Translations under genes and position numbers: made by a program
Origin: Brachybacterium muris
Lineage (GTDB): Bacteria > Actinomycetota > Actinomycetes > Actinomycetales > Dermabacteraceae
Assembly (NCBI RefSeq): GCF_016907455.1
Contig: NZ_JAFBCB010000001.1
Location: 186,001-250,000 of the forward strand
Length of the DNA: 64,000 nucleotides
Direction of reading: 5' to 3'
Notes under the pieces: generated by a model
Database searches by the model: none
What the model was told of the DNA's origin: nothing
What the model saw: only the letters and a program-made list of their open reading frames with translations
Shown here: positions 26,678 to 30,796 of the stretch, in pieces
How positions within the stretch are numbered: position 1 is the first letter of the stretch
Layout: every line of letters begins with the position of its first letter

Positions 26678-27634
26678 TCAGGTGGAAGCCAGCAGCTCCT
26701 TGGCCAGGTCCACGTCCACCACCAGGCTCGCGATCGCCCCACTGCGCAGCACGCCCGCCACACCGGGGGCCTTCTCGGCACCCGCGGCCACGCCCACCAC
26801 CTCGGGGATCCGCAGCAGCTGGGAGAACGTCACCGCCAGGACCCGCTGATCCGTCGGCGCCCCCAGCGGCACCCCGTGCGCGTCCACGAACCAACCGCAC
26901 ACGTCACCCACGGGCCGCTGGGCCAGGAATGCGGCCTGCTCCTGCTCGCTGAGCGCCATCTGCTCCACGATGTGCGGGGAGGAGTGCATGCCCATCGACC
27001 CGAGCCCCACCACCGCCAGCTCCACCTGCGCGGCCGCCTCCAGCACCGCCGCGATGCTGGACTCACCACGCAGAGTGCTCACCGTGGTGGCGGACTCCAG
27101 CACCGCCGGGGCGTACAGCATCTCGGCCCGGGCACCCAGGCGTGAGGCCAGCACCCGCAGCACCGACTCCCCTGACTCGAACTGGTCCAGCGCAGAATGC
27201 CCTCCCACCAGGGGGAGCACCCGTGGTGCGGGTCGCAGGCGCACCGTCTCCAGCTGCTCGACCACGCGCTGGACCGTCTGGCCCCAGGAGACCCCGATCG
27301 ATCGCACCTGCGCGGCTCGTGCGGCGATCACCACCGCGCCCTGCCGGGCTACCGCCTCCAGTCCGGGGGTGCGCGGGGCGGAGACCACATGCGCCTCCCG
27401 CAGGGAGAACCGCGCCTTCAGCGCCGCCTCGACCGCGGGGTGGTGGCGCGGGGGGCCGTCGGGGTCATGGATGGAGATCTCCACGATGCCGCGGTCGCGG
27501 GCCTGGGTGAGGATCCGTGACACATTGGAGCGCGAGAGCCCGAGCTCCTGGGCGACCTCCGTCTGCGAGCGGCCCTGCTCGTAGTAGAGACGGGCGGCGC
27601 GCACCACCAGGGCGGTGTCGCGGGGTGCGGGCAT
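26678..27634 (-). CDS. SorC-family sugar-binding transcriptional regulator
   Basis: A 318-residue regulator starting at ATG 27634 with AAGGAG upstream. The N-terminal helix-turn-helix is clear (AARLYYEQGRSQTEVAQEL, then LSRSNVSRIL, residues about 12-42). The effector domain has the SorC pattern: IGVSWGQTVQ, LPLVGGHS, VVGLGSMG and the late GVAAGAEKAPGV. SorC proteins bind phosphosugars and often control PTS or polyol genes. It is divergent from the EIIA-Nudix gene with 86 bp between starts, so it probably regulates it. Confidence 0.9.
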   Translation of the reverse strand: MPAPRDTALVVRAARLYYEQGRSQTEVAQELGLSRSNVSRILTQARDRGIVEISIHDPDGPPRHHPAVEAALKARFSLREAHVVSAPRTPGLEAVARQGAVVIAARAAQVRSIGVSWGQTVQRVVEQLETVRLRPAPRVLPLVGGHSALDQFESGESVLRVLASRLGARAEMLYAPAVLESATTVSTLRGESSIAAVLEAAAQVELAVVGLGSMGMHSSPHIVEQMALSEQEQAAFLAQRPVGDVCGWFVDAHGVPLGAPTDQRVLAVTFSQLLRIPEVVGVAAGAEKAPGVAGVLRSGAIASLVVDVDLAKELLAST

Positions 27635-27720
27635 CACGGCTCCTTCGGGCGTCGGGACTCCAGTATCCCCGGCGGGGCCGACGGGGTGCCAGAATCGTGT
27701 CACCGACCGGGGAGGTTCCC

Positions 27721-28959
27721 ATGACCGATGACCATCGCTCCAGTGATCCTGCCGCGAGCAGGGACCCCGTTCCCATCGGGGCTGTGCTGCACGGTGTGCC
27801 CGGCGGGACCGCGGAGGAAGTGCTGGGGGCCATCGCCCGCCACCTGGTCGGGAAGGGCCTGGTGGAGGAGAGCTTCCCTCAGGCGCTGTGGGATCGCGAG
27901 CGGCGGTACCCCACGGGTCTGCCCACGCGGATCCCCACCGCCATCCCCCACGCCGATACCGAGCACGTGCGCACCCGGTGCCTCGCGGTCGCGACATTGG
28001 TCAAGCCGGTCGAGTTCGGGGAGATGGGCGGCGCCGAGGGCGACACTGTGGCGACGCAGCTGCTGGTGCTGCCCCTGGTCACCGATCCCGACGCGATGGT
28101 GCCCGCCCTCCAGCGCATGATCGGTGCCCTCACCGATGAGCAGGTGGTCACGGAGCTGCTCGGTGCGGCCGATGAGGCGGAGCTGATGCGCCTGGCGCAG
28201 CTGCACCTCAGCGGCACCCCTGTGGCCGGCCGTTCGGAAGCGGGGCCGTCCGGTCTCGCCACCTCGTACGTCGATGGTCTGGGAGCATCGCACGCCACGG
28301 GGACGACCCCGGCCTCGACCGTAGCCCCAGCCCCAGCCCCAGCGCCGGGCGCAGCCCCGACCCCAGCTCCAGCGCCGACCGCAGCCCCAGCCCCAGCCCC
28401 AGCGCCGGGCGCAGCCCCGACCCCAGCTCCAGCGCCGACCGCAGCCCCGACCCCAGCTCCAGCGCCGACCGCAGCCCCGGCCGCTGCAGCGCGGCGCGGT
28501 CCCCGCGTGGCCGTGAAGGCGCTGATCGTGCGGGACGGCCACGTGCTGATGAACCGCGTTGTCACCTCCGACGGTGAGGTGCTGTACGGCCCACCCGGCG
28601 GCGGTCAGGACCACGGGGAGGACCAGGTGGCCGCCCTGATCCGGGAGTGCCGCGAGGAGATCGGCGCCGAGGTAGAAGTGCACCAGGTGGCCTGCGTGTA
28701 CGAGGTGATCAGCGACCTGCGGCTGCTGGACAGCAGCCGGATCGACCTGTTCCACCAGGTCAACGTGGCCTACTGGTGCGGGCTGGCCGAGGGACAGGAG
28801 CCCGGTGTAGGCAGTGATCCCGACCCGGGGCAGGAGGGCACCGACTGGTTGCCCATCGGTCGCCTGGACCAGTTCGAGATCCACCCGCCGGGGCTCGCCC
28901 AGTGGTTGGACTCGGACCCGAGCTCCCGGCCCGTCGGCCTCGGTCCGCTGCCGCTCTAG
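27721..28959 (+). CDS. PTS EIIA (galactitol-type)-Nudix hydrolase fusion
   Basis: A 412-residue protein starting at ATG 27721, GGGGAGG upstream. Residues 1-165 match the EIIA domain of galactitol/fructose-type PTS: YPTGLPTRIPTAIPHADTEH with the phosphorylatable His H77. Residues about 200-255 are a repetitive Ala/Pro linker (repeats of 10 residues, APTPAPAPTA-like). Residues 260-405 are a Nudix hydrolase with the Nudix box at 294-316 (G-x5-E-x7-REx2EE-x-G, all acids present). No EIIB or EIIC gene is nearby. The fusion could couple PTS phosphorylation state to hydrolysis of a nucleotide-linked compound; that is inference. A SorC regulator is divergent. Confidence 0.88.
   Translation: MTDDHRSSDPAASRDPVPIGAVLHGVPGGTAEEVLGAIARHLVGKGLVEESFPQALWDRERRYPTGLPTRIPTAIPHADTEHVRTRCLAVATLVKPVEFGEMGGAEGDTVATQLLVLPLVTDPDAMVPALQRMIGALTDEQVVTELLGAADEAELMRLAQLHLSGTPVAGRSEAGPSGLATSYVDGLGASHATGTTPASTVAPAPAPAPGAAPTPAPAPTAAPAPAPAPGAAPTPAPAPTAAPTPAPAPTAAPAAAARRGPRVAVKALIVRDGHVLMNRVVTSDGEVLYGPPGGGQDHGEDQVAALIRECREEIGAEVEVHQVACVYEVISDLRLLDSSRIDLFHQVNVAYWCGLAEGQEPGVGSDPDPGQEGTDWLPIGRLDQFEIHPPGLAQWLDSDPSSRPVGLGPLPL
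28317..28485. repeat. Coding tandem repeat of the Ala-Pro linker
   Basis: 30-bp units (gcagccccgaccccagctcc type) repeated in frame about five times; 60-bp blocks are near-identical, so copy number may vary without breaking the frame. Confidence 0.9.
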
Positions 28960-28978: not shown

Positions 28979-30796
28979 TCAGTCGCGGATGTCACCGGTG
29001 ATGGCGTCCACCGCGCGGATCAGCCCCAGGTGGCTGAAGGCCTGCGGGAAGTTCCCGGCCATGCGCCCTGCCGTGCCGTCGTACTCCTCGGCCATCAGGT
29101 CCAGGTCGTTCGCGCAGGCCAGGGTGCGGTCCATCATCGTCAGCGCATCCCCGGTGCGGCCGGAGGTGGCGTACTGCTCCACCAGCCAGAAGCAGCACAC
29201 CAGGAACGGGTGCTCGTCGCCCTCCAGTCCGTCCTGGCCGTTGGTGCGGTAGCGCAGCAGCAGCCCGTCATCGGTGAGCAGGTCCTGCTCGATGCGGGCC
29301 ACGGTGGCGAGCATGTGCGGGTCATCGGCCGGCACGAAGCCGGTGTGGGGGATCTGCAGCAGGGAGGCGTCCACCTCGTTGCTGCCGTAGAACTGCACGA
29401 ACGAACCGGACTCGTCCACGCCGCGCTCCAGGATCTCGGCCCGCAGCTTCTCCCGCAGCTGCTTCCAGCGCTCCACGTCCGCCGGCATGCCGTGGTGCTC
29501 CACGGCAGTGACGGCCCGGTCGAAGGTGGCCCACACCATCACCCGGCCGTGGGTGAAGAACGCCGGGTCACCGCGCATCTCCCAGATGCCCTGGTCAGGC
29601 TGGTCGATGCGCTTCTCGGTGTACCTCACCAGCACCTTCTGCAGCGGCCAGGACCACTCCGATTCCTGCACGCCCCTCTCGCGCATCATCCCCAGCGCGA
29701 TCATCACCTCGCCCACCACGTCGGCCTGGTACTGGGCGGCCGCGCCGTTGCCGATCCGCACCGGCAGGGAGCCCTCGTAGCCGGGCAGGTGCTCCAGTTC
29801 GCTCTCGGGCAGGTTCCGGTCGCCGACGATGTTGTACATGATCTGCAGCTGATCGGGGTCCCCGGCGATCGCACGCAGCAGCCAGTCGCGCCACTGCTCG
29901 GCGGCGTTGACGTGGTCGTGGGTGAGCAGCGCCTCCAGGGACAGGGTCGCGTCCCGCAGCCAGCAGTAGCGGTAGTCCCAGTTGCGTTCGCCGCCGAAGT
30001 CCTCCGGCAGGCTGGTGGTGGCCGCGGCGTCGATGCCGCCGCTGCGCCGATGAGTGAGCGCCCGCAGCACCAGCAGGGAACGGGCCACCGGCTGGGCGTA
30101 GCGCTCGTGCACCCGCACCTGGCCCAGCCACTGCGACCACTCCGAGACCGTGTGCTCCAGGGCGTCGCCGAGGTCCGGCGCCGGGGGGATCTGCATCCAC
30201 GACGGGTGCCAGGTGAGGACCCAGGTCAGCGTCTCGTTCGCGGAGGCCGAGTGGCGGCCCACGTGGCAGCGGCCCTGCGGGGTCAGCGCGGGCCCGTGCA
30301 CGGCCAACGCGTCACCCCCGGCGACGGCCGCCAGCACCGGTCGGCCCTCGACGTCGGTGTCCTTGCGCATCCACGGCACCACCGAGCCGTACTCGAAGCG
30401 GATCCGCAGTTCCTGCTCCACCTCGACGGTGCCGCCGGTGCAGCGCACCGAGCGGATCAGGTCGGAGTGGTCGCGGGTGTCGCCCTGCAGACAGGGGGAG
30501 GTCTCGTCCGACGCGGCGATCGGCATGAACTCCGTGATCACCGCACTGCCGGTGGGGGAGCGCCACTCGGTCTCCAGCACCATCGTCTCGGGAAGGTAGC
30601 GGCGCGAGACGACCTCCCCGCCGGCGATGCGCAGGGTCCAGTGGCCGTGCGACTGGTCCCCGAGCAGGGAGCAGAGCATCGCGGCGGAGTCGAAGCGCGG
30701 CATGCACAGCCAGTCGATCACCCCGTCCCGGGTGACCAGGGCGGTGGTGCGCTGATCGGACAGCAGCGCGTGGTCCTCGATGAGTGGGCTCGCCAT
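28979..30796 (-). CDS. Glycoside hydrolase family 15 protein (glucoamylase/trehalase-like)
   Basis: A 605-residue cytoplasmic protein (no signal peptide). It has the N-terminal super-sandwich domain with GVIDWLCMPRFDS near residue 25, then an (alpha/alpha)6 barrel with the hallmark NWDYRYCWLRDA near 268 and the late MAGNFPQAFSHLGLI. Actinobacterial GH15 proteins of this layout include mycobacterial-type trehalases, so a trehalose or maltooligosaccharide substrate is plausible. The S10 peptidase gene ends 24 bp upstream of its start and may be co-transcribed. Confidence 0.9.
   Translation of the reverse strand: MASPLIEDHALLSDQRTTALVTRDGVIDWLCMPRFDSAAMLCSLLGDQSHGHWTLRIAGGEVVSRRYLPETMVLETEWRSPTGSAVITEFMPIAASDETSPCLQGDTRDHSDLIRSVRCTGGTVEVEQELRIRFEYGSVVPWMRKDTDVEGRPVLAAVAGGDALAVHGPALTPQGRCHVGRHSASANETLTWVLTWHPSWMQIPPAPDLGDALEHTVSEWSQWLGQVRVHERYAQPVARSLLVLRALTHRRSGGIDAAATTSLPEDFGGERNWDYRYCWLRDATLSLEALLTHDHVNAAEQWRDWLLRAIAGDPDQLQIMYNIVGDRNLPESELEHLPGYEGSLPVRIGNGAAAQYQADVVGEVMIALGMMRERGVQESEWSWPLQKVLVRYTEKRIDQPDQGIWEMRGDPAFFTHGRVMVWATFDRAVTAVEHHGMPADVERWKQLREKLRAEILERGVDESGSFVQFYGSNEVDASLLQIPHTGFVPADDPHMLATVARIEQDLLTDDGLLLRYRTNGQDGLEGDEHPFLVCCFWLVEQYATSGRTGDALTMMDRTLACANDLDLMAEEYDGTAGRMAGNFPQAFSHLGLIRAVDAITGDIRD

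Follow-up and report, generated by a model that had tools for sequence, protein, structure and literature searches.

EIIA proteins of the PTS regulate transporters and enzymes by binding to them. Two described systems are relevant to the locus reported here. The incomplete PTS of Brucella, from which the permease is absent, forms a working phosphorelay (PMC2937029). In the RppH–DapF system a Nudix enzyme is regulated by a partner protein, DapF, and EIIA is mentioned once in the main text, among purified proteins (PMC4227774). A published description of an EIIA–Nudix fusion was not found in the open-access literature, in agreement with the preliminary description of this DNA, which knew of no enzyme with such an architecture.

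The window, i.e. the whole 64,000-nucleotide stretch that was analysed, belongs to a 3.65 Mb, one-contig genome of Brachybacterium muris (G000) that is 99.97% complete. It carries a single open reading frame of 412 aa (27721..28959, plus strand), the ATG of which, at 27721, has the Shine-Dalgarno-like sequence GGGGAGG 5 nt upstream. The fusion that had been proposed for this frame is borne out by profile searches, with both domains exceeding the curated Pfam cut-offs: a PTS_EIIA_2 domain occupies residues 30–158 (27808..28194, plus strand; E 1e-19, 71.4 bits vs. a cut-off of 27) and a NUDIX domain residues 261–388 (28501..28884, plus strand; E 9.3e-9, 35.8 bits vs. 21.1). The predicted phosphorylation site, His77 (codon 27949..27951, plus strand), is placed within the PTAIPH motif of the EIIA; it is invariant in 13 of the 13 rows of the EIIA alignment, from which the truncated EIIA of locus L019 was omitted, and a phosphorylatable His occurs in 24/24 Nudix-linked EIIAs, the L019 genome among them. 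The Nudix box, Gx5Ex7REx2EExGx (28600..28668, plus strand), is complete, and the pattern Gx5Ex7REx2EExG was matched in all 24 EIIA-linked Nudix proteins. Both the histidine and the acidic residues, read as intact in the preliminary description, which had held that their loss from orthologues would undo its proposal, are kept throughout. The label "galactitol-type" is a reasonable one for the EIIA, since its best NCBIfam match is PRK09665 (GatA), at 60.4 bits, below the equivalog cut-off of 139; judged from its sequence, the domain is a relative of GatA and not GatA itself.

The AlphaFold models of the two domains had pLDDT values of 89.1 (EIIA, 13-row alignment) and 94.5 (Nudix, 14-row alignment). 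For the EIIA, the best natural PDB match was 1xiz (TM 0.80), many of the other matches being antibody-epitope scaffolds, some of which bear the 1XIZ name. A second His, in a DARAHL-like context in most relatives, is replaced by DPDAM/DPEAM in the window and in its nearest relative, L007; we considered this as a mark of an altered active site and dropped the idea because 1xiz, the nearest solved relative, is also without it. For the Nudix domain, the best fold match was AtNUDX1 (5wy6, TM 0.73), the E. coli ORF135 structure (2rrk) giving a TM of 0.64. Among the 50 solved chains listed, out of 387 fold matches at E <= 0.001, identity to the window Nudix was 15–30% and no specificity stands out, and the AtNUDX1 match is too general for naming a substrate. 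The nucleotide sugars suggested beforehand as candidate substrates are favoured by none of our results, the nearest folds spanning several Nudix activities.

When 38 genomes of the genus were searched with the Nudix domain, a strong orthologue (E < 1e-42) was detected in 34; three of the four genomes without one (G026, G029, G031 and G032) are less than 90% complete. A profile scan found EIIA as a separate frame directly upstream of the Nudix gene in 23 of the 34 and no adjacent EIIA in 10, and the two are fused in one, the window genome, which corresponds to 1/24 of the genomes that bear the EIIA, fused or separate. In 22 of the 23 separate pairs the EIIA stop and the predicted Nudix start overlap in a 4-nt RTGA, G016 being the sole pair with a gap instead. 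A separate locus search scanned short exact peptides, a procedure that remote fusions could escape, and returned 13 Brachybacterium loci and two strays, an EIIA and a Nudix; the 13 named loci fall among the 23 separate-pair genomes and are not additional evidence. On plasmids, 330 records matched the fused protein, of which 0 covered 80% of the query. The conserved unit is an EIIA–Nudix gene pair that was fused once, and the fusion belongs to one genome, not to the whole family. The EIIA is dispensable for retention of the Nudix gene, because 10 orthologous Nudix genes are without an adjacent EIIA.

In a 37-row EIIA tree, from which G014 and four remote EIIAs (G010b, G012b, G018b and G020c) were left out, the Nudix-linked EIIAs were not resolved as a single group distinct from those of the operons (2 changes, weakly supported forks), and a single origin of the Nudix-linked EIIAs is neither shown nor excluded. 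The branch leading to G000 and G006 is unusually divergent in this tree, with a length of 1.49. The EIIA of G014 (L019:5887-6369) is missing its N-terminal part together with the usual intergenic region to SorC; it is likely damaged, yet the EIIB of the same genome keeps its Cys. Two further arrangements were observed: in G003 (L068) the Nudix gene is followed, ~1.1 kb downstream, by a second EIIA in the open reading frame from 4520, and in G017 an acidic low-complexity open frame (L055:3518-4246, minus strand) precedes the Nudix gene in place of the EIIA.

Upstream of the fused gene lies a divergent SorC/DeoR-type regulator with HTH and Sugar-bind domains (26678..27634, minus strand; PF04198, E 5e-50). 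The divergent SorC of the preliminary description is thus present in the window, but it is no universal companion: it adjoins the pair in 10 of the 13 named loci and was not found next to it in the other 3, whereas PabC lies upstream of the pair in 13/13. Alignment of the 13 upstream regions disclosed a conserved TGCCAGAATC motif that, with the GGGGAGG, spans 27687..27715 (plus strand). Its core, CAGAATC, stands ahead of the EIIA start in all of the 13 loci but L013; it also occurs at L010 and L011, where SorC was not found, which favours a promoter element over a binding site for SorC. The TGCCAGAATC motif may correspond to the −10 region of a promoter for EIIA. On the other side, a GH15/trehalase-like gene (28979-30796, minus strand) converges on the fused gene; of the 13 named loci, L019 alone showed a match to it, several kb off.

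EI, which matched three Pfam domains, and HPr are both present in the window genome, the one genome in which they were checked. The statement that neither EIIB nor EIIC is present is correct for the window, where whole-genome searches placed none of the three families covered (PF02302, PF03611 and PF02378), but not for the genome, which encodes an orphan EIIB of 98 aa (Pfam PTS_IIB) with the active-site Cys motif, at G000:C1:671573-671866 (L065:4574-4867, minus strand in L065). This gene precedes ispF and is divergent from ispD. Linkage to ilvA was seen for its orthologues at 34 of the 35 loci examined, the exception, L081, ending within ispF. The one EIIC found in G000 in the two families searched (PF02378 and PF03611) is part of a 721-aa glucose-type EIIBCA (PF02378), which is self-contained, with its own EIIB and EIIA_1; the galactitol-family EIIC (PF03611) gave no match, and the cognate EIIC that marks a galactitol PTS transporter is accordingly missing from G000. 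Outside the orphan group, the EIIBs that match next best (39–41% identity) occur in EIIB–EIIC–EIIA operons of G010, G018, G032 and G037, the EIIAs of which are related to the orphan EIIA (39–50%). Because relatives of both orphans share these operons, comparison of the sequences suggests that the orphan EIIA and the orphan EIIB may be a matched pair. G006 and G024, drafts of 20–40 contigs, have no PF02378/PF03611 match, yet keep the EIIA–Nudix pair and the EIIB, and represent a permease-less PTS in the sense of EIIA and EIIB retained without an EIIC of these two families. A second GatA-like EIIA_2, which stands alone, was located at G000:C1:3424323-3424715 (L066), beside a transposase gene, presumably of IS21 type, and a gene that we take to be alpha-L-fucosidase-like.

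The proximity of the EIIB to ispD and ispF, together with the AtNUDX1 fold of the Nudix domain, raised the possibility of a link to isoprenoid synthesis. This was rejected: the EIIB occurs without ispD/F in L073, L083, L090, L098 and L099, where its neighbours are presumably carD-like and ilvA-like genes, and the position of AtNUDX1 as one of 387 Nudix fold matches counts against the link as well.

The EIIB Cys motif was found in 24/24 EIIA-bearing genomes, the EIIB of G027 being split by a frameshift, and 8 of the 10 genomes with a Nudix gene but no adjacent EIIA are without the EIIB Cys or without EIIB. Ser replaces the Cys of the ilvA-linked orthologue in G005, G007, G013 and G034, the active site is degenerate in G018 and G022, and EIIB was not found in G011 and G035, both of which belong to these 10; the remaining two, G012 and G017, retain the Cys although no EIIA is linked to their Nudix gene. 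Where no strong Nudix orthologue was detected, an EIIB with Cys occurs in 3 of the 4 genomes, none being found in G026. The contrast of 24/24 with 2/10 yields a Fisher value of 2.5e-6, uncorrected for the tree; after correction on the Nudix tree the pattern is reduced to 1–2 independent pairs, with which significance is unreachable. With so few independent changes, the association of EIIA with the EIIB Cys is suggestive only. An informative genome is G035, nested in the EIIA-bearing clade (support 98/92): it retains the Nudix, side by side with SorC, but in the families covered by the searches neither EIIA nor EIIB nor EIIC was detected.

Comparison of the window with its nearest relative, L007, gave dN/dS values of 0.25 (EIIA), 0.23 (Nudix), 0.10 (SorC) and 0.37 (PabC); for EIIB the value was 0.09, obtained against G006, which is the genome to which L007 belongs. 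Both fused halves are under purifying selection, at a pace between those of SorC and PabC; some relaxation of the EIIA is possible, given the long G000/G006 branch and the damaged EIIA of G014. A distance-correlation (mirror-tree) analysis of EIIA, Nudix and EIIB looked positive in a first run over 20 of the 24 EIIA-bearing genomes. When IlvA, IspD and IspF were added as controls (14/24 genomes), the partial correlations were 0.44 (E-N), 0.46 (E-B) and 0.51 (N-B), vs. 0.46 (E-I) and 0.50 (B-F) for controls; G014, with its truncated EIIA, was omitted from both runs, and the other missing genomes lacked one protein in the loci examined. Since the control values were similar to those of EIIA/Nudix/EIIB, the apparent signal was rejected and is not used here.

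Cumulatively, our findings support an old association of EIIA and Nudix, fused once, in a branch of the PTS equipped with EIIA and EIIB but with no permease of its own. Our best guess is that EI, HPr, EIIA and EIIB make up a regulatory PTS branch in which the EIIA would belong to a Nudix hydrolase, as its subunit or as one of its domains, and control it. In Brachybacterium a GatA-like EIIA gene lies upstream of the Nudix gene, its stop overlapping the Nudix start, the two being probably translationally coupled; in the window lineage the overlap was lost and an Ala-Pro linker expanded to give one protein. His77 would receive phosphate from EI and HPr in step with PEP supply and PTS flux, the EIIA would hand the phosphate to the orphan EIIB encoded next to ispF/ilvA, its presumed partner, and the phosphorylation state of the EIIA would modulate the attached hydrolase, whereby nucleotide or diphosphate turnover might track carbon status. 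Of these steps we infer the phosphotransfer, the EIIA–EIIB pairing and the control of Nudix activity alike. That Nudix activity could follow PTS phosphorylation, as first proposed for this gene, is plausible, because EI and HPr are present in the genome and the EIIA–Nudix link is conserved in 23 relatives. As an explanation of the whole, the coupling of EIIA to Nudix with phosphorylation of His77 by EI/HPr, relay to EIIB and modulation of the Nudix hydrolase is held with a probability of roughly 0.4. Its stricter version, a permease-free EI–HPr–EIIA–EIIB relay with the EIIA as a built-in regulatory subunit of the Nudix hydrolase (a domain of it in one species), the EIIB supplied from the ispD-ispF/ilvA locus and the turnover of diphosphates or nucleotides set by PEP supply, seems to us rather doubtful.

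Phosphorylation control would be the simplest reason for tying an EIIA to a Nudix enzyme; nearly as good an account of the facts is that the proper role of the EIIA is phosphate donation to the orphan EIIB in a regulatory relay, and that the Nudix gene has no more than a promoter in common with it. The fusion would then be accidental and close to neutral, its long flexible linker leaving the parts independent. The rarity of the fusion among EIIA-bearing genomes, the persistence of Nudix in 10 genomes without the adjacent EIIA, and the constraint on EIIB, stronger than that on either fused domain, all agree with such an accident, as do the EIIA tails of some relatives, which are low-complexity and expanded. 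By contrast, the 4-nt overlap in 22/23 separate pairs exceeds what would be expected from chance adjacency, and SorC, a neighbour too, is not found beside the pair in 3/13 loci. We consider this account a tentative but serious one, somewhat short of an even chance. It is improbable, in our estimate, that the EIIA is a drifting leftover of a gat-type transport system whose EIIC was lost: the lack of a PF03611 EIIC, the EIIB–EIIC–EIIA operons of G010, G018 and G037, which are situated ~8–10 kb away from the Nudix gene, the other EIIA standing alone in the same genome and the damage in G014/L019 would fit such a relic, but not an EIIA dN/dS of 0.25, a His intact in 24/24 or a pair kept in G006 and G024 without an EIIC of the two families searched.

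The junction itself consists, as the preliminary description had it, of an Ala-Pro repeat linker that joins both domains in frame (28316..28479, plus strand). TRF resolved it as a tandem array with a period of 60 bp, 2.7 copies, 94% matches and 0% indels, or alternatively of 30 bp and 5.5 copies, and the reading frame is preserved because the array is free of indels. Over the 60 codons leading up to VKAL, no ATG, GTG or TTG occurs in frame with the Nudix apart from two GTGs within strand 1, so that a frameshift would deprive the Nudix of a normal start there. In one pairwise alignment with L007, the former stop/start CATCGCATGACGGG now reads CATCGCACGCCACGGG, with a stretch added before CATCGCACGCCACGGG and repeat growth after it; the N-terminus of the L007 Nudix is already Ala/Pro-rich. 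The EIIA tail ahead of the Nudix gene is of variable length and low-complexity in several relatives, that of L017 (L017:6420-6528) consisting of NGTES-like repeats. As one genome alone carries the fusion, independent sequence confirmation of it is absent. An assembly or sequencing error within the repeat that merged two genes, an unlikely event that a fusion seen in one genome only and a GC-rich tandem junction nevertheless bring to mind, has the slightest of chances, in view of the indel-free array with its frame open throughout, the lack within 60 codons of a separate Nudix start outside its first strand, and the replacement of the former stop and start in the alignment to the nearest relative.

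If Nudix activity is indeed under EIIA control, carbon flux would be coupled directly to nucleotide or diphosphate turnover. The fused protein is a handy reagent, with a single polypeptide, a single phosphorylation site and a single assay, and the gene-pair pattern offers a natural control set of fused, separate and EIIA-less orthologues in one genus.

Compared with known systems, the window EIIA has in common with the GatA/PTS_EIIA_2 family (PF00359; 1xiz) the fold, the PTAIPH motif and PRK09665 as best NCBIfam match; it differs from that family in being fused or coupled to a Nudix domain, in its sub-equivalog score and in a genome without a PF03611 EIIC. The Nudix domain shares the full Nudix box and the fold with the MutT/NudG/AtNUDX1 group (PF00293), and is set apart from it by its tie to an EIIA and by an identity of 15–30% to the 50 solved chains listed. 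RppH–DapF resembles our proposal in combining a Nudix enzyme with a regulatory partner, the partner there being DapF and not a PTS protein (PMC4227774). PTSNtr and the Brucella PTS (PMC2937029) employ EI, an HPr-like protein and an EIIA for regulation and not for transport, as we propose for the present locus. Set against these systems, the B. muris branch has a GatA-like EIIA, an orphan EIIB, an unrelated EIIBCA permease and an EIIA that is tied to an enzyme.
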